From contig NZ_FNOZ01000017.1 of NCBI RefSeq assembly GCF_900107175.1, forward strand, positions 1 to 64,000: 64,000 nt of DNA, read 5' to 3'. This document shows positions 218 through 9,540 of this stretch, one piece after another (within the stretch, counting starts at the first letter, position 1; each line of letters begins with the position of its first letter). The DNA comes from Modestobacter sp. DSM 44400 (GTDB lineage Bacteria; Actinomycetota; Actinomycetes; Mycobacteriales; Geodermatophilaceae). The translations under genes were made by a program, and so were the position numbers. The notes beneath the pieces were generated by a model, which was given only the letters and a program-made list of their open reading frames with translations, was not told the origin of the DNA and did not search any database.

Positions 218-338
218 TCGTGGCCCCTCTGCTGTCGGCTCGTATCCACCGTCAGCATCGAGGGGCCACGGGCTTCTCAGCCCGAGGCCGCGATCCTCAC
301 AAGATCATGTCCTTCTTCCCCCTCAAGTTCGAAGAGCC
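1..338 (-). mobile_element. ISL3-family insertion sequence, right-hand end only
   Basis: The window opens inside an insertion sequence. A transposase starts at 217 and reads leftward off the window, and outside its start lies a terminal sequence that reads GGCTCTTCGAACTTGAGGGG on the minus strand and ends at 338. Tips that begin GGCTCTTC or similar are typical of ISL3 elements. Positions 220-229 and 260-269 form a 10-bp inverted repeat (GTGGCCCCTC/GAGGGGCCAC) just upstream of the transposase. ISL3 elements usually duplicate 8 bp of target, so GCCATGGG at 339-346 is the candidate duplication. The other end is outside the window, so this cannot be confirmed. Confidence 0.75.
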
Positions 339-341
339 GCC

Positions 342-497
342 ATGGGCGGGGTTGTGCCGCCGACTGACGAGCTGCGCCAGGCGGCATCCAAGTTGCTCAG
401 GGTCCCGCTGTCGGACCTCTTCACCGCCGAGTCGCTGGCCGAGGTTTGCCGCCCGCTCCCGCCGGGGCTGCGGCGCAAGTCGGCGGCCCAGCGATGA
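342..497 (+). CDS. small hypothetical protein of the mobile element, probably cut by the insertion sequence
   Basis: A 51-residue frame starts four bases after the insertion-sequence end and stops in an ATGA overlap with the next gene. The product (MGGVVPPTDELRQAASKLL...) has two predicted helices and a basic C-terminus. The stretch LRQAASKLLRVPLSDLFT looks like the end of an XRE-type or transcription-accessory domain, but this is not secure. Because the frame stays open back into the insertion sequence, the original gene may have been longer, with its 5' part displaced by the insertion. The ATG at 342 is then only the first start available. Function unknown. Confidence 0.4.
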   Translation: MGGVVPPTDELRQAASKLLRVPLSDLFTAESLAEVCRPLPPGLRRKSAAQR

Positions 498-760
498 GCG
501 CTCTTGACGATCTCTCCCTCATCGCCAAGCACGCTCTCTGGGTCGGCTGCATGGCCGCGAGCGTGCCCGTGCCGCTGAGCGACCCGGCGACCGTCGAGCG
601 TGTGTCGTCGCTGCTGCGGTCCGGGTCCTCGACAAGCAAAGAGGGCCCAGGCGTCAGGACTGGACCCTCTTCACTCTCCACCCACCACACCGCGTCGGGG
701 CGGCCTGCCAGTCACCCCTCACGAGCCTCGTCATGTGAGGTTCGCTATGACTCAGAGTAA
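494..760 (+). CDS. hypothetical 88-residue protein upstream of the primase
   Basis: The start overlaps the previous stop (ATGA at 494-497), and the end overlaps the primase start by 14 bases, so the three genes are probably translated together. The N-terminal half (MSALDDLSLIAKHALWVGCM to about residue 38) reads like a folded helical segment with conserved hydrophobic spacing. The second half is Ser/Thr/His-rich and low in complexity and may be disordered. I recognise no family. Small proteins in this position are common in actinobacterial integrative elements and often act in copy control or excision. That role is only inferred from position. Confidence 0.5.
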   Translation: MSALDDLSLIAKHALWVGCMAASVPVPLSDPATVERVSSLLRSGSSTSKEGPGVRTGPSSLSTHHTASGRPASHPSRASSCEVRYDSE

Positions 761-2624
761 CGAGGTTGTGACTGCTATGGCTGAGGCCGATGCCCCCGTC
801 ATCCAGTACACCGACGCATCGTTTGTGCGGCTGAATGGACGCGTCGCCAAGGAGCCGGGCTGGCAGCTCACGAGGTTGACATGGCCTGCTGTCGAAGGCG
901 ATGACAGCTTCGGCATCAACTGCGGGCTGTCCGGCTTTGTGGTCATCGACTGCGACACCAAGGAAGTCGATCCCGGTGACGGGGAGGGTCCTCTCTGGCT
1001 CTTCGGCGAGCAGTCGCTGGACGACTTCCTGTGGCACAACAGGATCACGCTGCCGCCGACCTTCACGGTGCGGACTCCGCGCGGTGGCGTGCACCTCTAC
1101 TTCCGGATGCCGCCGGGCACGTCGCTGGGCAACCAGACGGACTGGCTGCCGGGCGTGGACTACAAGTCCACCGGCGGGTACGTCGTCGCCGCCGGGAGCC
1201 GGGTGGCCGCTGATCCGTCGAAGGGCAAGCCCGCCGGAAGCTATGAGCCGGTCGACTCGTCGGTGCAGGTCGCGGACCTGCCTGACGTCCTCCTGACGGC
1301 CCTGCGGACGCGTCAGCGCGGCGATCGTCGCGGCGAGCCCATCGGCGGCAACGTCGATGATCTCGCTGGGGCGCGCGACGACCTGTGGGACTTCGGATCG
1401 CCGGTCGGTCCGGGTGAGCGCGACGACGTCGCGTTCCGGTTCGCGTCGTCGCTGCGGAACTCCATGTCGATCAAGACGAAGGCGAAGCGGCTCATGGAGC
1501 TGCGGCACCGCGACTTCGTACAGCCGGTGGGTAACACGTTCCTGCTGGAGACGGCGCTGGCCAAGGTGGACAACGCGTGGGCGAACTACTCGGAGCCGAC
1601 GGCCGAGACCTGGCAGACCGAGGCAGCGGCGGCGCTGGTCGCCACCACTCCCCCGGCTCCGGTCACGCCGATCGAGTCGCCGCAGACGCGGGCCGCGTAC
1701 ATCCGGTCTCGGCTGCTGGCCGAGGACGAGCTGGACCTGCTGCCGGAGCCGGAGTTTCTCATCGGTGACGATCTGCTTCCCGCCGACGCGGTAGGCATGC
1801 TCATCGCGGCACCGGGCACCGGCAAGACGCTGCTGGAGCTGGACTGGGCGCTGTGCATCGCCGCCGGCCAGCCCTGGCACGGCCGGTCTGTCCGGCAGGG
1901 CCGCGTGCTCTACGTCTACGCCGAAGGTGCACGCGGCCTGCGGCTGCGCCGCGATGCATGGCGCGCCTACAACGGCGGGCTCATCGTCGGCTCGAACGCG
2001 ATGTTCTACCCGTCGACGGTGCCGCTGCTCGATCCCGGCTGGGTGAGCGGTCTGGTCGAAGTCGTCGCGGAGCTGAGCCCGGCGCTGGTGGTGATCGACA
2101 CGCTGGCGCGTGCTACCGCCGGTGCTGACGAGAACTCCGTTAAGGACATGGGCCGTGCGCTCGAAGCCGCGCACGCGATCCGTGAGTCGTCGGCCTGCGC
2201 CGTCCAGCTGGTGCACCACACCAACCGGAGCGGCGAGTACCGCGGCTCCAGTGCCATCGAGGCGGCGGTCACCGACATGATGACCTTGAGCCGCATCAAC
2301 CCGGGCATGGTCATGCTGCGGCAGTCCAAGCGCAACGACGGCGAACCGTTCGATGACCTTCATCTGCGGTTCGAGGCCGTCGAGAAGTCCGGCGTACTGG
2401 TCCCCAACGACGGCATCCGGCAACTGCTGGACGGTGACATCAAGGCCAAGGTGCGGGCCGCGCTCGCCGTGCTTCGGTCAGCCACAGCGGGCCAGATCAC
2501 CGAACACACCGAGGCCAACACCAAGGCCGTTCAGCGGGCGCTGACGGCGCTGATGGAGAGCGGCGACGTTCTCCGCGACGGACCGAGCAACCGGCCGGTC
2601 TACCGGCTGGCGGTGGCGCTCTGA
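747..2624 (+). CDS. bifunctional primase-polymerase / RepA-like helicase
   Basis: This 625-residue replication protein has two parts. The N-terminal archaeo-eukaryotic primase/polymerase domain (about residues 20-210) shows the acidic pair in VVIDCDTK (near 67), the GGVHLYFR strand and the STGGYVVAAGS loop typical of bifunctional primase/polymerase (Prim-Pol) proteins. The C-terminal RecA-fold ATPase (about 330-560) has Walker A APGTGKT near 357, Walker B ALVVIDTLARA and the LVHHTNRSGEYRGSSA segment seen in RepA/AAA_25 hexameric helicases. A short winged-helix-like tail follows (about 570-620). ATG 747 was chosen because it has GAGG upstream and begins just before the primase fold. The next gene overlaps its stop. 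It is likely the autonomous replication enzyme of the element. Such fusions are usual in phage satellites and integrative plasmids. Confidence 0.88.
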   Translation: MTQSNEVVTAMAEADAPVIQYTDASFVRLNGRVAKEPGWQLTRLTWPAVEGDDSFGINCGLSGFVVIDCDTKEVDPGDGEGPLWLFGEQSLDDFLWHNRITLPPTFTVRTPRGGVHLYFRMPPGTSLGNQTDWLPGVDYKSTGGYVVAAGSRVAADPSKGKPAGSYEPVDSSVQVADLPDVLLTALRTRQRGDRRGEPIGGNVDDLAGARDDLWDFGSPVGPGERDDVAFRFASSLRNSMSIKTKAKRLMELRHRDFVQPVGNTFLLETALAKVDNAWANYSEPTAETWQTEAAAALVATTPPAPVTPIESPQTRAAYIRSRLLAEDELDLLPEPEFLIGDDLLPADAVGMLIAAPGTGKTLLELDWALCIAAGQPWHGRSVRQGRVLYVYAEGARGLRLRRDAWRAYNGGLIVGSNAMFYPSTVPLLDPGWVSGLVEVVAELSPALVVIDTLARATAGADENSVKDMGRALEAAHAIRESSACAVQLVHHTNRSGEYRGSSAIEAAVTDMMTLSRINPGMVMLRQSKRNDGEPFDDLHLRFEAVEKSGVLVPNDGIRQLLDGDIKAKVRAALAVLRSATAGQITEHTEANTKAVQRALTALMESGDVLRDGPSNRPVYRLAVAL

Positions 2625-3202
2625 TGGCCGCCGATCAGTCGGCCACGGACCGGCCGGTCGAGGAGCCCGTCGGACCCGGCTTGTCCGATGAGATCGACCG
2701 TCTTGTCCGACGGGAGGACAACACAACTTCCGAGAAACTGCTGGTCAGCGGGTCCGTCGGACAGAGTGTCCACCCGTCGGACAGTCGTTGTCCCGTCGTC
2801 GGACAGGACAGGGTGGGGGTACGTAGTACCCCCCCTGTCCACCGGGGCCGTCCACCGGACGCGTCCAGTGAGAGCGATCAACTGCGCCAGCTGTCGGAGC
2901 TGCTCGGCGTCCACGTCGAAGACGTCGAGCTGTGGGAGAGCCCGACTGACGGCCGCCGCCGCTGGTACTTGGTGATGACCCAAGATCGCCGCCAGTGGGC
3001 CGTCCCGGTCCACAGCCGAGAGGTCCGGTCCCCCACCGCGCTGAATGCCTTGACGCGCCGCTGGGGCCGAACCCGCGCCCTCCCGGAGCTGACCAAGGCC
3101 GATGGCCGACGAGCCCTGCGCCTGATGCACGAAATCACCGAAGCCGAGGCCGCTCTCGGCCTGGACACCGACACCACCCACCTGAAGGAGAACGACCGAT
3201 GA
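2624..3202 (+). CDS. hypothetical protein overlapping a putative replication origin
   Basis: The ATG shares its A with the primase stop (TGATG), and the end overlaps the next start (ATGA). The 192-residue product has two unlike parts. Residues 1-85 are low in complexity, and their DNA carries repeated TCGGACA boxes and a large hairpin. Residues 86-185 look like a folded domain with an acidic-aromatic stretch (VEDVELWESPTDGRRRWYLVM) and a helical end. I recognise no family. The open frame through the repeats may be incidental, with the repeats being the element's origin and the true protein starting later. Possible later starts, such as GTG 2812, have no good ribosome site. Confidence 0.5.
   Translation: MAADQSATDRPVEEPVGPGLSDEIDRLVRREDNTTSEKLLVSGSVGQSVHPSDSRCPVVGQDRVGVRSTPPVHRGRPPDASSESDQLRQLSELLGVHVEDVELWESPTDGRRRWYLVMTQDRRQWAVPVHSREVRSPTALNALTRRWGRTRALPELTKADGRRALRLMHEITEAEAALGLDTDTTHLKENDR
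2669..2840 (+). other. putative replication origin: five TCGGACA iterons plus a 35-bp hairpin
   Basis: The heptamer TCGGACA occurs three times on the plus strand (2757, 2777, 2799) and twice on the minus strand (2682-2688 and 2704-2710). Within each group the copies lie 20-22 bp apart, about two helical turns. Directly to the right, 2806-2840 folds into a stem of 8 + 8 pairs with one small internal bulge and a GTA loop (GGACAGGG..GGGGTAC/GTACCCC..CCCTGTCC). Phased repeats next to a strong hairpin, immediately behind a primase-helicase gene, are how many plasmid and satellite origins are built. The repeats are seen; the function is inferred. Confidence 0.5.
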
Positions 3203-3819
3203 GCATCAACCCCAACCCTGAGCCCACCGGCGACCTCGACTGGTCAGAGGAGGACCTGTCTCGATTGGAGATGATCAGCGCGATCCCCGGCATCGCCAAG
3301 ATCGTCGGTGGCCTGGCCCAGGTGGTCGAGAACGCCCTGAGTCCCGCTCTGAGGGGCCGCAGGGTGCAGTCCTGCCTTCACATCATGGACGAGATCAACA
3401 CGCGTGCGTTCATGCCGATGGACACGGTCGAGGATGCCGAGCCTGGTCGTCGGCCCCTGCTCTGCCCCCGGCATCCGGAGCGGTTGCTCTGCAACAAGCC
3501 GGACTGCTTCTACATGCATTATCTGGCTCACCACAGCGATGAGCCCGACGTCGCGGTGTGCTTCGTCTGCTCGACGCCGGTGGCCGACTTGGAGTTCGAG
3601 GGCGTCACCGCCGAGGTGCAGCTCCACCGGCAGCTGCCCTTCTACGACGACCACCGCCACGTTGACGCCTTCTGGACCTACAGGGGCACCCTCGGCGTCC
3701 TTCCGGTCGCGTACCTCTGCCCGCGGCATGACCGGCTGATCGACCTGCCGGTGCAGTTGGCCTGGCCTACCGGGGGAACCGACGATGTGCAGCCCGAGGA
3801 CGTCTACCGGCTTGCGTAA
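3199..3819 (+). CDS. hypothetical Cys/His-rich (probable zinc-binding) protein
   Basis: The last gene of the replication operon overlaps its neighbour by ATGA. The 206-residue product has an acidic N-terminus (DWSEEDLSRLE), a helical segment up to about residue 75, then a run of potential metal ligands: CPRH, CNKPDC, HYLAHH, CFVC and, near the C-terminus, CPRH again. That gives two or three possible zinc sites (CxxH, CxxxxC, CxxC, CxxH). I recognise no family. Position suggests a replication, packaging or regulatory role in the element, with zinc used for structure or DNA contact, but this is inference. Confidence 0.6.
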   Translation: MSINPNPEPTGDLDWSEEDLSRLEMISAIPGIAKIVGGLAQVVENALSPALRGRRVQSCLHIMDEINTRAFMPMDTVEDAEPGRRPLLCPRHPERLLCNKPDCFYMHYLAHHSDEPDVAVCFVCSTPVADLEFEGVTAEVQLHRQLPFYDDHRHVDAFWTYRGTLGVLPVAYLCPRHDRLIDLPVQLAWPTGGTDDVQPEDVYRLA

Positions 3820-3888
3820 CGACCACTGCCGGTCGAGCACTTAGGCTCGGCCGGCGGGGCGGCTTCACAGGCGCCCCTCAGCAGCTGC

Positions 3889-3915
3889 TTGTCGGTCTAC
3901 CGGAGCACGTAAGTT
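3889..3915 (+). promoter_or_regulatory. possible promoter for a leaderless transcript
   Basis: TTGTCG (3889-3894) and TAAGTT (3910-3915) are separated by 15 bases, and TAAGTT ends six bases before the GTG at 3922. No Shine-Dalgarno sequence precedes that GTG. A -10 box this close to a start codon is the usual picture of a leaderless actinobacterial mRNA. The -35 match and spacing are weak. Confidence 0.3.
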
Positions 3916-3921
3916 GCCTCC

Positions 3922-4704
3922 GTGACCATGCTCATGTCCGGGTGGACGCGCCACGGAGTTGTCCTAGCCTCCGACCGCCGACTCACATATCCCGACGGAA
4001 GTATCGCCGAGGATCGAGAAAACAAGCAGGTCGTATGGAACAACGCACTTGTCATGGCGTACACGGGCTTGGCACGCCTTGGCCCGAGGGCGGAGGAGTC
4101 CACACACGACTTCATGACCAGCGCCCTCAGTAGGACTACCTCCGGCGACAGTTGGAACCCGACCAGTTTCGCAGACTTAGCGACGGCAAAACTTCGTTCG
4201 ACTCGGCGAGTCGTGAACCATAAGTCCACCGGCCTACTCTTTCTCGCAATAGGAGTCGGCGCTGACAACCGTCGGCTGGGAATCGTCATCACGAACCTGC
4301 CGGACGCCGGATGGAGCGAACAGCCGAACATGAGTTTCAGGGCCACTACGTATCAGATGCCACCCGCCTCCATCACCGTTCACGGGCAGCGACTACATCC
4401 GGCGGCGCTAAACTCAGTGTCCCGCTACCGACGCCGCATAGAGCGGCACACCAGCTCGCTCAAGCCAGTGGCTCAAATTCTCGCGTTAGCGATACAAGGC
4501 GCTGCGATGAGCGAGCCCCGAGTCGGATCTAACGTGGTCGCCACGATGATCTCCCCGGGGACTCCGTCTCAGTCTCTATATTTCCCGGGCGATCAGAGTG
4601 AAACGACCGCTTATCATCCTAATGTAATTCTGGGCCACACCATCTTGTCGGGCATTAAGATGACTTATCCGGACCAGCCGATTCGATTCCGATACCTGCC
4701 CTGA
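3922..4704 (+). CDS. proteasome-beta-like Ntn hydrolase (stand-alone, on the mobile element)
   Basis: The 260-residue product begins Met-Thr. If the Met is removed, Thr becomes residue 1, and the following TMLMSGWTRHGVVLASDRRL matches the start of proteasome beta subunits: Thr1 nucleophile, Asp17 in ASDRR, a lysine at 34 (proteasome Lys33 with one inserted residue) in NKQVV, and a Gly48 turn in AYTGLA (Gly47). No propeptide precedes Thr1. The C-terminal half has the GSNVVATMISPG stretch expected from the second sheet. The gene is clearly poorer in GC than its neighbours (codons such as CTA, ACA, TAT, AAT), stands alone, and lies between the replication and integration genes, so it looks like separately acquired cargo. 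The fold is inferred from motifs; substrate and role are unknown. A defence or anti-host function is possible. Confidence 0.6.
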   Translation: MTMLMSGWTRHGVVLASDRRLTYPDGSIAEDRENKQVVWNNALVMAYTGLARLGPRAEESTHDFMTSALSRTTSGDSWNPTSFADLATAKLRSTRRVVNHKSTGLLFLAIGVGADNRRLGIVITNLPDAGWSEQPNMSFRATTYQMPPASITVHGQRLHPAALNSVSRYRRRIERHTSSLKPVAQILALAIQGAAMSEPRVGSNVVATMISPGTPSQSLYFPGDQSETTAYHPNVILGHTILSGIKMTYPDQPIRFRYLP

Positions 4705-4739
4705 GAGGTCTGACGACCGGACTCATAGGCATGGGCGTC

Positions 4740-4835
4740 TGGGCGCCAACCCCAGCCCCACCACCTGACTGCCCGTCCCCTGGGCGCCACCCCAGCGCGA
4801 CGCGACGGAACAAGATCGCGGACTCAAGATCGCGG
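4740..4835 (+). repeat. intergenic direct repeats
   Basis: The space between the Ntn-hydrolase gene and the next gene holds two pairs of direct repeats. TGGGCGCCAACCCCAGC (4740-4756) recurs as TGGGCGCCACCCCAGC (about 4780-4795). AAGATCGCGG occurs twice 15 bp apart (about 4812 and 4826). No gene is visible here. They could be remnants of duplication or protein-binding sites. Confidence 0.5.
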
Positions 4836-4844
4836 TGGGCCGAC

Positions 4845-4873
4845 TTGCACCAAACGAGCGTCTCGTTTACATA
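4845..4873 (+). promoter_or_regulatory. promoter with an operator palindrome in its spacer
   Basis: TTGCAC (4845-4850) and TACATA (4868-4873) are separated by exactly 17 bases, a good vegetative promoter spacing. Filling that spacer is the perfect palindrome AAACGAG-CGT-CTCGTTT (4852-4868). A repressor bound there would block polymerase. A second palindrome, GCTTGA-GCGT-TCAAGC (4905-4920), lies in the leader. The transcript would serve the genes from 4953, including the recombinase. No obvious repressor gene is in the visible part of the element. Confidence 0.5.
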
Positions 4874-4952
4874 GCCTTGCTAAGCAGTTACGTTCGTCTG
4901 GGTTGCTTGAGCGTTCAAGCACGCACGTCAGGAACCCAGGAAGGCAACCGCC

Positions 4953-5273
4953 ATGATCGACTTCTCCGCCCTCGCCGCTGGTGCCACCGTCGCCGCCGAG
5001 GCCGACTTCCCCTCGGCCGCCGCGACCCGTCGCCGGGCCGCTGACCCCGCGTTCGTCCAGCTCGTCACCGACGCCACGAAGGACCACAAGCGCCGCGAGC
5101 TGCCCGGCCGGTTCAGCACCAAGCCCTTCGAAGGGCGCAAGGGTGCCAACGAGCTGAGCACCGTGGCCAACGAGCTGCACCGCGCCGCGCGCCAGGTAGG
5201 CATCAAGATCGCCGTCCGCCGCTTCGACGTCGAGGACGCCTCGGCCCGCCTGACCTTCAAGGTCGCCAAGTGA
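4953..5273 (+). CDS. hypothetical 106-residue protein, first gene of the recombinase operon
   Basis: ATG 4953 has a reasonable ribosome site (AGGAAGG upstream) and follows the operator-controlled promoter. The product has an Ala-rich start, then a basic middle (KDHKRRELPGRF, KPFEGRKGANEL) and ends in a short beta-strand pattern (IKIAVRRFDVEDASARLTFKVAK). The mix of basic residues and a small alpha/beta layout would suit a DNA-binding or nucleoid-associated accessory protein such as a recombination directionality factor, but no family is recognised. Its stop overlaps the next tiny gene, which in turn overlaps the recombinase, so the three are probably one unit. Confidence 0.6.
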   Translation: MIDFSALAAGATVAAEADFPSAAATRRRAADPAFVQLVTDATKDHKRRELPGRFSTKPFEGRKGANELSTVANELHRAARQVGIKIAVRRFDVEDASARLTFKVAK

Positions 5274-5386
5274 CCGAGCCGCTCCCCTCCCCTGGCGACG
5301 ACGACCAGGCCGACGACTTCGACGGGTATGACGAGCGCGGCGGCCCGCCCGTTGACCCCGACGACCCGGACGCGGAGCCCTGGTGA
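5270..5386 (+). CDS. 38-residue highly acidic protein coupled to the recombinase
   Basis: GTG 5270 overlaps the preceding stop (GTGA) and TGA 5384-5386 overlaps the recombinase GTG at 5383, so this frame is embedded in a chain of translational coupling. The peptide is dominated by Asp, Glu, Pro and Gly (for example PGDDDQADDFDGYDERGG) and has almost no basic residues. It may be a genuine small acidic protein, conceivably a DNA mimic or a partner of the basic protein encoded just upstream, or only a spacer that couples the two genes. The coupling at both ends favours real translation. Confidence 0.5.
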   Translation: MTEPLPSPGDDDQADDFDGYDERGGPPVDPDDPDAEPW

Positions 5387-6018
5387 ACGTCGTCGCCTAC
5401 CTCCGAGTCAGCACAAGGGAGCAAGCCGACACTGGCCATGGGCTCGACGCGCAACGCCACGAGATCCTTTCTACGGCCTCGGCTCGGGGCTGGGCGATCG
5501 TTGCCTGGACCGAGGACGCCGGCGTGTCTGGCGGGCATCTAGACCGGCGCGCGGGCTGGTTGCGCGCCATCGAGCTGGTCGAGTCGGGCCAGGCCGACGC
5601 GATCGTGGCGAGCAAGATCGACAGGGTCAGCCGCTCGGTCGCGGACTTCGCTGCTCTCGTGGACCGGGCGCAGACCTCGGGCTGGGCGTTGATCATCTTG
5701 GACATTGGGTTGGACTTGACGACGCCGATGGGCCGCTTCACCGCCCATGTCCTGTCCGCTGCCGCGCAGCTCGAGCGCGACATGATCAAGCAGCGCACAC
5801 GCGACGGGCTCGCGGCGGCGCGATCCAAGGGCATTAAGTTGGGTCGGCCTCGGTCGCTGCCGGAGGACGTCGCCCATCGGGTCATCGAGCTGCGTGCCAG
5901 CGGCGCGACCCTGGCCGCGATCGCCGACCGCTTCAACGCCGAGGGTGTGCCCACCGCCAGGGGTGGCAGCCGCTGGCACCCGGCCACCGTCCGGGCTGTC
6001 CTCACCCGAGCCGCGTAG
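5383..6018 (+). CDS. small serine recombinase (resolvase/invertase family), probable integrase
   Basis: The 211-residue protein carries the resolvase catalytic fold: the nucleophile Ser10 in YLRVSTREQ, the KIDRVSRS arginine motif near residue 70, and the long helix AAAQLERDMIKQRT. The C-terminus has KGIKLGRPRSLPED, then a helix-turn-helix (ATLAAIADRFNAEGVPTARG and the WHPATVRAVL segment) like the start of the recombinase domain in larger serine integrases. The end is short of the zinc and coiled-coil domains of phage-type large integrases. It is the only site-specific recombinase in the visible part of the element, so it may perform integration and excision, although resolution or inversion is equally possible for a protein of this size. 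GTG 5383 is set by the overlap with the acidic gene. Confidence 0.85.
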   Translation: MNVVAYLRVSTREQADTGHGLDAQRHEILSTASARGWAIVAWTEDAGVSGGHLDRRAGWLRAIELVESGQADAIVASKIDRVSRSVADFAALVDRAQTSGWALIILDIGLDLTTPMGRFTAHVLSAAAQLERDMIKQRTRDGLAAARSKGIKLGRPRSLPEDVAHRVIELRASGATLAAIADRFNAEGVPTARGGSRWHPATVRAVLTRAA

Positions 6019-6060
6019 CCCCGGCGTCAAGCGGCTGAGCGCCGTGCTGAAGACGCGACA

Positions 6061-6092
6061 ACGCCCGCTGCGAACAATCTCGCAGCGGGCGT
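6061..6092 (+). terminator. strong hairpin after the recombinase
   Basis: ACGCCCGCTGCGA (6061-6073) pairs perfectly with TCGCAGCGGGCGT (6080-6092) around a six-base loop. It lies 43 bases past the recombinase stop and is followed by TCGTCGTGTT, only moderately T-rich. This is best read as the terminator of the 4953-6018 operon. A recombinase binding site is an alternative. Confidence 0.65.
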
Positions 6093-6110
6093 CGTCGTGT
6101 TACTTGAAGG

Positions 6111-6604
6111 TCATCTCAGCCGGTGACCCCGGCAACCCATGACCTGTGCGTCCATCAGGCCATCAGCGCAGACCACCGACTGGTCGCGAGCGAAATTTCC
6201 CAGCTCCGCGCTGGGGGAACCGGTCAGGTCTCGACCAGCTCCCGCAACTCGGCCCGGCGGCAGGTCCTCCAGCACCGGCCAGGAACCACCCAGCTCCGGT
6301 GTCGCCAGCGTCTGGACGTCCACGTCCCAGAAGCCGACGCCAGTCTCATCGAGCAACTTGCCGATCTTCGAGCGAGCGGCGGCGGCGTTCGCCCCCTTGG
6401 CCACGTGTCGCAGAGGAACCCAAGATCGTCGGCCTCGTCCTCGTCCTCCGTCGTCACCCTCCGCACCTCGGCCGCGATCGCCCTGAACCCCGCCCTCTCT
6501 TCCGCCAGATGATCAAGGGCCGGTAGTCCGCTCTGGCCTGTTCCTGGCGACTTGCCGTGCCGGGTGTTTGTCCGGGGCGACGGGGGGAAGGTGGTGTCTA
6601 GCAA
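6111..6604 (-). pseudogene. possible broken minus-strand gene in an otherwise empty stretch
   Basis: Between the recombinase terminator and the secreted-protein gene (6093-6628) there is no good gene. Two minus-strand frames hold protein-like text. From about 6530 a frame reads ALDHLAEERAGFRAIAAEVR and an acidic run TTEDEDEADDLGF, which resembles the helical N-terminus of some phage head proteins. From 6404 another frame reads SKIGKLLDETGVGFWDVDVQ. If they were once one gene, a frameshift near 6400-6430 has broken it. The resemblance is weak, and the region may simply be non-coding. Confidence 0.22.
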
Positions 6605-6628
6605 CCCCTCTCCCAGAAGGAGCTATCC

Positions 6629-6955
6629 GTGAAGCTTTCCAAGGGCATCGCCACCGCCGCCGTAGCCGGAGCGCTGAGCTTGGGCGTGGCCGCGCCGGCC
6701 GCCGCCGCACCGACGAACACCGCCGCAGGTGGCGCTGCTGGCTTGATCGCGGCCGTGGTCCAACTCCAGGACGTCACCGTGACCGTTGTCGATGTCGACG
6801 ACGTGAACGTGGCGGTGCAGAACGTGCTGAACAGGAACCGGATCCTCAACAACGCGTTCCAGAACTTCCTGAACAACAACAACGTTGACGTCGACATCAA
6901 CGACGTCATCGACGTCAACATCCTCGAGGACGGAACGGTCGTCGTCGTCATCTGA
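6629..6955 (+). CDS. small secreted protein with alternating Val-Asp repeats
   Basis: The GTG start has a good ribosome site (AGAAGGAG, about 7 bases upstream). Residues 1-28 form a classical signal peptide (MKLSKG, a hydrophobic core, then APAAAAP). The mature part, about 80 residues, alternates Val and Asp (VTVTVVDVDDVNV, VDVDINDVIDVNI), has an Asn-rich centre (NRNRILNNAF, FLNNNN) and ends in Val-Val-Val-Val-Ile. There is no Cys. Such alternation suits a beta-helix or amyloid-like surface protein, and calcium binding by the Asp ladder is possible. It has its own terminator and so is probably a single-gene unit. Function unknown; a secreted cell-surface or biofilm component carried by the element is the simplest reading. 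Confidence 0.75.
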   Translation: MKLSKGIATAAVAGALSLGVAAPAAAAPTNTAAGGAAGLIAAVVQLQDVTVTVVDVDDVNVAVQNVLNRNRILNNAFQNFLNNNNVDVDINDVIDVNILEDGTVVVVI

Positions 6956-6970
6956 CGGTTCCGGTTCGCC

Positions 6971-7004
6971 GATGATGGCCCGGTCTCTGGACCGGGCCAT
7001 CGTC
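6971..7004 (+). terminator. hairpin terminator after the secreted-protein gene
   Basis: GATGGCCCGGTC (6974-6985) pairs perfectly with GACCGGGCCATC (6990-7001) around TCTG, with partial extension outward. It starts 18 bases after the stop of the secreted-protein gene. There is no U-tract, as is usual in very GC-rich actinobacteria. Confidence 0.7.
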
Positions 7005-7189
7005 ATGAGTGCGCCCGTCGCTGCTCGAGGTACGGCTCCCTGGCTTGCGCTCGGTCATAGACCGCTGCTGGCCGCCCTCGACTCGTTACGATCAACGCCA
7101 GAGCGACGGCCTGGCGCCTAGTGCGAGGGCAGCAGCGGTGAACCGGTGGCGCATGTAGCGCCATGGCGGCCCTCCCGGATGTGCGAGTC

Positions 7190-7203
7190 GATCACACGTG
7201 ATC
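7190..7203. promoter_or_regulatory. palindromic site upstream of the capsid gene
   Basis: GATCACACGTGATC is a perfect palindrome with a two-base centre, 20 bases before the capsid start codon and just upstream of its ribosome site (CAGGAG). The 7005-7222 gap contains no gene. The site could be an operator for the capsid operon. TACGAT near 7086 is a possible -10 box, but I found no convincing -35. Confidence 0.3.
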
Positions 7204-7222
7204 ACGCACCCAGGAGCTTCCG

Positions 7223-8767
7223 ATGCCCGGTCGTCTTACAGAGGGCCTTGCGCCCGCCCCGTCTACCGCGAAGCCGTCCGCCGAGTCGGACAGCCGCCTT
7301 CAGTACCTGATTGACAACATCACCAGCTTGTCGGAGTACGAGCTCCAGGAACTGATCGACATCCTTCAGAGTCGTGCTGAGGCGGCGGGCGGCGATCCCA
7401 ACCTGAGCACCCGAGAGCTGCAGTCACTGGCCTCGTTCTCCATGCTCGTCAAGACGGAGATGCAGCGGCGCAACAACGGCGGCGCGATCACTGCGAGCGC
7501 GACGACCTTCGTTGTTCCGGCTGACCGGCGGCCCAACCGCGTCGGCAGCGGATCCGCTACGGCCATCACCGCCAGCGGCGTCGACCTGAACGACGGCGAC
7601 TCGCTTGGTCACGAGTTCGCCGACGCCATGAAGCGGTCGGCCTCGGACCCGCGCATCGGCAAGACCCAGGTCGCCAAGTTGCATGTCCAGCGGTCCGCCG
7701 ACCGGACTCTGACCACCGACGACCCGATCGCCACGGCTGCCGTGTTCAAGGCCGCTGCCGCCGAGCACGCCCAGTACGTCGCCGCGCAGCTGGCGCAGCC
7801 GCAGGCACTGGTTGCCGCTGGCGGGCTCGGCACGCCGGAGGCCGTCGACTACGCCATCGCCGGGTTCGAGGTCGCTGACCGGCCCGTCCGGGACGCGCTG
7901 CCCAGCTTCACCGCTACACGCGGTGGCGTCCGCTTCGTTCGGCCGCCGACCCTGGCCGACCTTGAGGGGTCGGTGGGCATCTGGTCGATGGCGAACGACA
8001 TCGCCGCCGTCACCGACCCGGCCGTGCGCAAGCCGATCCTCCGGGTGCCGATGAGCACGGAAGTCGTGGTCGACCTGATGGCCGTCACCAACCGGCTGTT
8101 GTGCGGCAACACGCTGGCGCGCGCCTTCCCCGAGTACGTCACCCGGATCACCGAGCTGGCGCTTGCCGTCTACGCCCGCGTGGCCGAGCAGCAGCTGCTC
8201 ACCCAGATCGGGGCGCTGTCCACGGCGGTGTCCGGTGCGGCCGGCGAGGGCGCTGGCGTCGGTGCGACGCGGGTTCTGCTGCCGCTGCTCGACCGCGCCG
8301 CCACGGGGATGCGCGACCGGCTGCGGATGGCTCAGGACGCGCCGCTGCAGCTGGTCCTCCCTCACTGGTCGAAGGGCATCCTGCGTTCTGACCTGGCGAT
8401 GCAGGAGCCCGGTGACGCTCGTGAGGGTGTGACCGACGCCGAGCTGATCGGCTACCTCGCTGCGCGGAACCTGGCTCCGACGTTCGCGCTGGACGGGGAG
8501 GCCGGGCAGCACTTCGACGTCCAGGACCCCGGCCCGGTCAACGCGTGGCCGACCGAGATCGTCAGCTACATGTTCCCGGCGGGGGCGTTCCAGTTCATGG
8601 ACGGCGGCACGCTGGACCTGGGCATCGTGCGGGACTCGGAGCTGAACGCGGCGAACGACTTCGAGATGTTCTCCGAGGGCTTCGAGGCCGTGCTGCACCG
8701 CGGTGGCGAGGCGTTCCGCATCAGCCAGGCCGTCACCCCGTCCGGCATCAGCCGGGCCGCTGCCTGA
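7223..8767 (+). CDS. HK97-fold-like phage major capsid protein
   Basis: The 514-residue product has the outline of a phage major capsid protein. Residues about 20-60 form a charged helix (SRLQYLIDNITSLSEYELQE) that would act as the scaffold-like delta segment. A linker reaches about residue 115. The remainder is a long alpha/beta region ending with YMFPAGAFQFMDGGTLDLGI and RDSELNAANDFEMFSEGFEA. The 'D-L-G-x-V-R-D-S-x-L-N-x-x-N-D-x-x-x-F-x-E' pattern is typical of actinophage major capsid proteins. ATG 7223 follows CAGGAG. No protease, portal or tail gene is next to it. The following gene overlaps its stop. This assignment is by motif and length, not by full alignment. Confidence 0.78.
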   Translation: MPGRLTEGLAPAPSTAKPSAESDSRLQYLIDNITSLSEYELQELIDILQSRAEAAGGDPNLSTRELQSLASFSMLVKTEMQRRNNGGAITASATTFVVPADRRPNRVGSGSATAITASGVDLNDGDSLGHEFADAMKRSASDPRIGKTQVAKLHVQRSADRTLTTDDPIATAAVFKAAAAEHAQYVAAQLAQPQALVAAGGLGTPEAVDYAIAGFEVADRPVRDALPSFTATRGGVRFVRPPTLADLEGSVGIWSMANDIAAVTDPAVRKPILRVPMSTEVVVDLMAVTNRLLCGNTLARAFPEYVTRITELALAVYARVAEQQLLTQIGALSTAVSGAAGEGAGVGATRVLLPLLDRAATGMRDRLRMAQDAPLQLVLPHWSKGILRSDLAMQEPGDAREGVTDAELIGYLAARNLAPTFALDGEAGQHFDVQDPGPVNAWPTEIVSYMFPAGAFQFMDGGTLDLGIVRDSELNAANDFEMFSEGFEAVLHRGGEAFRISQAVTPSGISRAAA

Positions 8768-9471
8768 TGGGCAAGCGCGACCCGCGCTGCACGACACCCG
8801 GCTGCACGTACATCGCTGTCCCTGACCAGCCGGTGTGCGTGCAGCACGGGGGCCAGCCAGCGGCCCGACTCTCGGTCGCACCGGTCGACCACATGAGGCT
8901 CTGTGGCGCGACCCGGCGAGACGGCGGCTCTTGCCAGCAGCCCGCCATGCACGGTCAGCAGCGGTGCCGGATGCACGGCGGCTCGGCTCCCCGAACGAGA
9001 GGCAAGGCTGTGGAGCGAGTCGCGGAGCAGAAAGCCATGGAACTCGCCGACAAGCACGGCGTCCCCCGGTCCATCTCGGCGGTCGACGCACTCCAGGAGG
9101 AGCTCGATCGGACCCAGGGGCGGATCGACTGGTACCAGCGCCAGCTGACGCTTCAGCCGCACGACGGAGCGCTGTTGGCGGTCTACTCGGCCGAGCGCAA
9201 CCATCTGCGCCAGCTGGCCGGAGGGATGGTCACCAGCAAGGTCGACGAGCGCAAGGCCGTGGTGTCGGAGCGCACCCTGGACGTCCTAGAAGCTGCGGTC
9301 GAAGCCACGCTCCGCGACTTCGGGCTCGACCCGCACAGCGACCGCGTTCGCCGGGCGATCGGCCGTCACATGACGGAGCTGGTCAAGACCGGTGACTCGC
9401 ACAAGATGGGCGACGTGATCGACGCGGAGATCGTCTCCGACGATCCGATCCCCCAGCCCGTACCGTTCTGA
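8767..9471 (+). CDS. HGGxP-motif zinc-knuckle protein, possible small terminase subunit
   Basis: The ATG shares a base with the capsid stop (TGATG), so the two are coupled. The first 85 residues contain two Cys/His knuckles that each end in HGG: C-x4-C with CVQHGG, then CGATRRDGGSC with CRMHGGSAPR. This HGGxP signature is frequent in proteins encoded beside actinophage terminases and capsids. After it comes a long helical region (GKAVERVAEQKAMELADKHG, ALQEELDRTQGRIDWYQRQL) and a C-terminal helical domain up to residue 220. The overall build, DNA-contact head plus helical oligomerisation part, fits a small terminase subunit, but the family function is not proven. It is the last gene of the element before the chromosome junction. 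Confidence 0.6.
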   Translation: MGKRDPRCTTPGCTYIAVPDQPVCVQHGGQPAARLSVAPVDHMRLCGATRRDGGSCQQPAMHGQQRCRMHGGSAPRTRGKAVERVAEQKAMELADKHGVPRSISAVDALQEELDRTQGRIDWYQRQLTLQPHDGALLAVYSAERNHLRQLAGGMVTSKVDERKAVVSERTLDVLEAAVEATLRDFGLDPHSDRVRRAIGRHMTELVKTGDSHKMGDVIDAEIVSDDPIPQPVPF

Positions 9472-9540
9472 CCAGGGGATATACCGTCTAGACGCCCTAC
9501 AGGCCGGTATTCGAACGACGGCACTGCGTCAGGTCGACAA
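9472..9540. other. right junction of the mobile element with chromosomal tadA
   Basis: Up to 9471 the genes belong to the element. From about 9540 rightward the minus strand encodes intact TadA sequence ending in GEVRGGEVVDL. Between them the tadA frame continues into unrelated residues (TQCRRSNTGL) and a stop at 9497. The crossover should therefore lie between about 9500 and 9540. A matching copy of the core at the left end, beyond the window, would define the attachment sites. Confidence 0.55.

Follow-up and report, generated by a model that had tools for sequence, protein, structure and literature searches.

Why should a mobile genetic element carry a proteasome-like hydrolase as a lone gene? 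The question is raised by the first 64 kb of contig C156 of Modestobacter sp. DSM 44400 (NZ_FNOZ01000017.1, positions 1 to 64,000; this whole stretch is called the window; host assembly 5.0 Mb in 182 contigs), where a gene for a hydrolase of the N-terminal nucleophile (Ntn) type lies within an insertion in the host gene tadA. The product is almost certainly a stand-alone Ntn hydrolase fold of a proteasome-like family, and its gene is, with scarcely less confidence, the cargo of a mobile element. The complete reading, that of a stand-alone threonine hydrolase which travels as mobile cargo and serves in conflicts with other phages or elements, has in our view an even chance, the defence role being deduced from gene position only.

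The translated open reading frame (ORF) of the Ntn gene reads MTMLMSGW...VLASDRRLT...ENKQVVW...AYTGLA. With the Thr of the Met-Thr start counted as residue 1, it contains Thr1, Asp17, Lys34 and Gly48, the residues picked out by the initial annotation. An in-frame TAA at 3910-3912, four codons 5' of the GTG, leaves only three codons before the start, so that a propeptide is not possible, in agreement with the earlier claim. The next start downstream is ATG 3928, from which the product would be without Thr. With a GC content of 58.6% (67% at third codon positions) the gene is indeed poorer in GC than its surroundings, compared with 67.5% in bases 230-9526 and 75.1% in the host DNA (9527-64000). 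For the suggestion that the gene may be leaderless the signs are mixed: by eye, a TAAGTT stops 6 bases 5' of the GTG, but a sigma-70 scan at the gene detected no promoter-like site.

A profile of ten homologues, from which the window protein was excluded, matched the Ntn ORF at E 1.5e-29 and none of the other window segments at E <= 10 (441 stop-to-stop segments of at least 80 aa, whole window). Met1, Thr2, Asp18, Lys35 and Gly49 (Met counted) are invariant in 14 of 14 homologues. Since this profile matched nothing else in the window and the Thr, Asp, Lys and Gly positions never vary, the match of the Ntn ORF is more than chance. Two fold predictions both contain the Ntn beta-sheet core with flanking helices, and fold comparisons of both gave Anbu and 20S subunits among the matches listed; structures of HslV, BPH and connectase were not among these, which excludes none of them. 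The proposal of a proteasome-type Ntn hydrolase is thus supported by conservation of its Thr, Asp and Lys as well as by the predicted fold. Helices are predicted at residues 61-70 and 80-92, corresponding to the position of H1 and H2, and at 160-174 and 180-197; an insertion between H3 and H4 as in PMI was not seen in the model. As to the long C-terminal helix H5 of Anbu, residues 239-248 form a helix in the first model and strands in the second, at low confidence in both. The protein is very likely an active enzyme.

Some results count against this assignment. The Pfam family Proteasome (PF00227) was matched collinearly at E 0.073, but with 13.1 bits stayed below the cut-off of 22.4, TIGR03634 was reached at E 0.15 only, and phmmer of the window protein against the PDB gave no match. 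Three of the 14 copies are short (120, 159 and 102 aa), one of them being the integrase-linked copy G958. As all sequence families remain below cut-off, it is the profiles, the motif and the predicted fold that support membership. The family profile matched HslV collinearly at E 0.28, below threshold.

The initial annotation had described the gene as carried by a mobile element, and the host site supports this. The tadA gene is cut at about 9530, and its remaining half resumes near base 210 of contig C111. In all 11 same-genus loci read, which come from 11 of the 22 other same-genus genomes searched, tadA is uninterrupted at this point. Moreover, the Ntn gene was found in only one of 56 genomes of the host's family, and its neighbours are of phage type (Table 1). 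The host's own prcBA genes lie on contig C67, by eye with pafA-like neighbours; PrcB matched the family profile at E 0.11-0.14 (three-sequence search; collinear, 12-54 on 11-51). A recent copy of the host gene was rejected, as comparison of the family by hhalign with PrcB and with PrcA produced nothing usable; close similarity to the host genes is absent. Nine element proteins were scanned against Pfam and phrog, four of these in one further scan. None of them could be recognised as an alpha subunit, a proteasome-type ATPase or HslU, as had been stated for the vicinity of the gene (for HslU the search was confined to these proteins); an AAA_25 ATPase domain is present, but within the replication protein.

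Relatives of the window protein were counted at 14 places, window included. Left out were L004, L005 and L006, taken as chance matches inside other genes on account of their ORFs, and L014, a C-terminal match for which no start was found. Duplicates were merged (L013 = L019, G416; L009 = L007; L016-L018 repeating L011, L012 and L015; L020, L037 and L040 belonging to the L002 place). The family is matched by nine phage records, with relatives in temperate Gordonia phages. A single-sequence scan of viral contigs gave no relative, scan A1 gave the Gordonia phage Nymphadora again and nothing else, and of 119 candidate stretches from the scan of genome contigs (A3) one was confirmed, in Protofrankia coriariae, the same place as G300 and in a genome of the host's class. 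Plasmid searches with the proteins of G300, G928, G1070 and G556 returned nothing, and the one with the plasmid-borne protein returned only itself.

Clear mobile settings were observed at six of the 14 places, i.e. in the window, at G105, in the Gordonia phages, on the Mycobacterium marseillense plasmid pJCM17324, at G928 and at G958. The G105 copy is accompanied by a large serine recombinase (PF00239 2e-32, PF07508 1.2e-9), an AAA_25 helicase and a weak small terminase match. On pJCM17324 the Ntn gene lies two genes after a resolvase; an ORF ending 13 bases 5' of it (L008 648-1367) is a possible partner, with a sub-threshold match to DUF4145 (E 0.1). Near the G928 copy there are Prim-Pol and FtsK genes, a layout which we take to resemble an actinomycete integrative element. 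The short copy G958 is situated 6 bases after a phage-type integrase, near a tRNA-Lys. An IS transposase occurs nearby at G1070 and G835. The replication protein of the window has a relative near the G105 copy (E 1e-39) and a weaker one near the G928 copy (4e-11).

Lone proteasome-like proteins without propeptide, some of them phage-borne, are already known. Fuchs, Alva and Lupas (2021, PMC8665760) described 22 new families of this type without function, and found no genomic context suggestive of one. According to their survey propeptides are restricted to 20S beta and HslV, and PPH, CPH, AAH, PMI-4 and DAH are marked for phages in its Table 1. By that table DAH (Distant Actinobacterial proteasome Homolog; representative WP_085249540.1) fits the window protein best and is probably its sub-family, an assignment set by description rather than by sequences. 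Like the window protein, DAH is proteasome-like and propeptide-less; it is marked for Actinobacteria and phages, and also for Proteobacteria, Cyanobacteria and other bacteria. DAH members with extra C-terminal domains (section 3.3) have counterparts among the relatives found here, too, but for the extra domain of DAH no matching structure is known, while G550 has TPR repeats in its C-terminal part. No informative gene context is given for the families of the survey (PMC8665760), in contrast to the mobile, partly defence-related context reported here. A search of open-licence PMC articles yielded, among the matches listed, no report on DAH function, nor any on phage defence by a proteasome-like protein. 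Two members of the family are far longer than the window protein, with 571 aa (L034 16179-17891) and 598 aa (L035 10811-12604); one of them, G550, has its TPR repeats C-terminal to the Ntn domain, and in the other the C-terminal part looks repeat-like but matches nothing in Pfam with confidence.

PPH and AAH are likewise proteasome-like, without propeptide and phage-carried (PMC8665760). PPH proteins, however, have about 140 residues and lack H2, as opposed to 260 residues and two predicted helices at the H1/H2 position here, and PPH was ruled out. AAH was found in no Actinobacteria-specific phage (PMC8665760), and the relatives in Gordonia phages therefore argue against it; AAH and CPH were both judged by their descriptions, not by sequences, and the description of CPH is compatible with the window protein. 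PMI is disfavoured, the insertion between H3 and H4 being absent from the model. Anbu shares 13-16% identity with the window protein in structural alignments and forms split rings (PMC8665760). HslV and 20S beta differ from it by their propeptide, and no partner ATPase was seen in the element; a 20S beta subunit was ruled out, there being no propeptide and, among the element proteins scanned, no alpha-subunit gene. A further phage-carried proteasome homologue is g89 of phage vB_CbaS-RXM, named BPH by its authors (PMC8953757), in a lytic-type phage of an alphaproteobacterium; it is set beside the window protein by description.

The strongest single hint at function is positional and comes from the Gordonia phages. 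In Nymphadora the family member, gp30, lies after the last tail gene and before the integrase, on the strand opposite to the adjoining tail and lysis genes. In Pope et al. (2017, PMC5559632) this region is described for prophage-expressed defence, with toxin-antitoxin and exclusion genes in Gordonia phages. Kita and Zirinka, which are outside the nine matching records, have other genes in the same slot, the one in Zirinka being annotated as a BrnT-like toxin. Strong defence matches were obtained in four of the 14 neighbourhoods: IetAS (G394), TIR-TM (G300), TIR (G928) and type IIG restriction (G1070). At G394 (L033 1634-9596), 8 kb of a 17.8 kb contig hold the Ntn gene, the genes for ArdC and the single-strand binding protein SSB and, upstream, an IetAS pair. 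Two genomes that belong to different families have a TIR-domain gene in divergent orientation next to the Ntn gene (L037 5714-8058; L049 9082-11259), and related genes for AAA_33 kinases (45% over 172 residues) occur in both of these neighbourhoods. Some of the gene neighbourhoods thus favour the defence, superinfection or takeover function that the initial annotation had put forward as a possibility.

We propose that methionine aminopeptidase would remove Met1 and so expose Thr1; as this step alone exposes the nucleophile, no propeptide processing would be needed. Thr1 may then be activated by Lys34 and Asp17, with Gly48 as oxyanion hole, a chemistry established for the proteasome. Carried as accessory cargo by actinobacterial phages, a plasmid and elements of the Prim-Pol and integrase types, the hydrolase would do without an unfoldase of its own and would cut or transpeptidate specific proteins. 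Most probably it would serve in conflict, shielding element and host cell from other phages or elements, in the niche described for toxin-antitoxin and exclusion genes in the same Gordonia phage region. To this role, taken by itself and argued from position, we give an even chance at best. Doubtful, though worth stating, is the broader idea that lone threonine hydrolases have repeatedly been recruited by actinobacterial mobile elements, for which they would form a new class of weapons between elements or of immune effectors. On this view some of them lie next to TIR or IetAS systems, and others are joined to repeat domains of a sensor-like kind.

Several points weigh against a role in conflict. 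At G824, G550, G556 and G416 no clear mobile or defence gene was seen by eye, G550 and G556 being seen in part; G416 has a PIN-domain gene (2e-8) a few kb away and weak candidate-defence matches. PADLOC models matched neither the window protein nor those of L007, L008, L002 and L048 at E <= 0.01, and the TPR fusion G550 gave one weak PADLOC match within its repeats (0.0076). Furthermore, a small control of 10 host genes, which is not a proper background rate, produced one strong-looking PADLOC match (mad2, 1.2e-16) and three weak ones, none of which we credit as a defence gene. The mad2 match is taken for false, as the gene reads by eye as a cobalamin-pathway methyltransferase. Because of this false-looking value we gave weight to matches that scored much higher or had backing from Pfam. 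Neighbouring genes were called by an in-house ORF-scoring script and those to be scanned were picked by eye, so that the neighbourhood counts are observations, not rates.

Alternatively it might be that the hydrolase serves counter-defence or takeover, destroying or modifying a host defence or regulatory protein at entry or induction. The mobile setting of the Ntn genes would suit such a function, and so would the G394 copy with its neighbours ArdC, an anti-restriction protein, and SSB. Genes for ArdC and SSB are typical of the leading region of conjugative elements. We nevertheless consider this unlikely, since the Nymphadora gene is part of the region for which prophage-expressed defence has been described, and defence matches outnumber counter-defence matches among the neighbours scanned. 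Somewhat less probable still is a housekeeping task, in which the hydrolase would process a protein of the element itself, e.g. the replication protein, a repressor or the capsid protein. Of 20 capsid matches among those listed, 13 begin only at residue 204-216 of the window capsid protein, none of the nine proteins scanned could be recognised as a prohead protease, and a Prim-Pol or AAA_25 replication gene is nearby at at least three of the 14 places (window, G105, G928). There is, however, no common partner: in tblastn of nine other element proteins of the window against 13 homologue loci (E <= 0.01) the replication gene recurred at two loci and the resolvase at two only. In addition, gp30 is oriented opposite to the tail and lysis genes, and the genes listed for the 10.6 kb plasmid stretch include none for a capsid. 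On these grounds we did not retain the idea of a capsid-maturation protease.

Comparably improbable is an active but non-proteolytic protein, a specific ligase or transpeptidase as in connectase or a small-molecule amidase. The profile gave three matches in the PDB, two of which were connectase (E 0.37) and a DUF2121 protein (E 0.36), both weak and in the C-terminal half; homologue G300 showed a very weak N-terminal match to connectase (E 0.16). No unfoldase partner was seen, and connectase is described as a monomeric ligase without H1 and H2 in PMC8665760. The window protein, by contrast, has helices predicted at just this place, and its fold comparisons listed Anbu and 20S subunits.

The initial annotation regarded a proteasome-type protease carried as satellite cargo as new. 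With the families of 2021 this no longer applies to lone, also phage-borne homologues; what is added here is that they occur in mobile elements of several kinds, at some places with genes for anti-phage defence close by. This recurrent setting makes the question of function testable. If the hydrolases were indeed recruited as weapons or effectors, this would be the first function for an orphan proteasome-like family of the 2021 survey, and threonine proteases would join the chemistry of conflicts between phages, elements and bacteria.

Table 1. Features of the inserted element in the window (E-values follow the family names)
Feature	Position	Strand	Evidence
ISL3-type transposase start at contig end	2..217	-	PF14690 5.3e-6
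Prim-Pol and AAA_25 replication protein (primase-helicase)	600..2624	+	PF13481 1.9e-37, PF09250 1.4e-20, phrog_906 1.9e-52
ORF between replication gene and Ntn gene	2624..3202	+	no family in scans
ORF with Cys/His pairs, ending 102 bases 5' of Ntn start	3196..3819	+	no family in scans
Proteasome-beta-like Ntn hydrolase	3922..4704	+	260 aa, GTG start, MT- N-terminus
Small ORF	4953..5273	+	no family above cut-off
Small serine recombinase (resolvase/invertase type)	5383..6018	+	PF00239 2.6e-37, phrog_95 4.3e-49
HK97-type major capsid protein	7223..8767	+	phrog_777 4.7e-60
Phage-like ORF	8764..9471	+	as longer ORF 8545-9468: phrog_3678 1.6e-16 (unknown function)
Element right end inside host tadA	9480..9533	.	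tadA 5' part (minus strand) from about 9530

The element is incomplete, since the window starts at a contig end within the ISL3-type transposase; contigs C156 and C111 are joined only via the tadA halves, and the interior between them is absent from the assembly. The element is possibly a phage satellite, a status unproven because of the missing part. Neither tail nor lysis genes were seen among the scanned proteins of this element, within which the contig ends. The two ends (window 9480-9533 and, on the C111 side, L030 165-215) are by eye inverted near-repeats (13 of 16 bases) and share CCTG in tadA. A transposon with terminal inverted repeats was considered; recombinase att sites are as likely, as the C111 side resembles by eye the start of a large serine recombinase, although Pfam found nothing for these 57 residues. 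A longer form of the ORF with Cys/His pairs (from 2995) gave sub-threshold matches only, and for ORF 8545-9468 phrog_10899 (terminase small subunit) reached just 0.022, with nothing credible in Pfam. Between the resolvase and capsid genes a small protein of no credible family (6629-6955) has a signal-like N-terminus and is rich in Val, Asp and Asn. The capsid protein has matches in 700 phage records, e.g. 44% over residues 216-512 in Arthrobacter phage Atuin.
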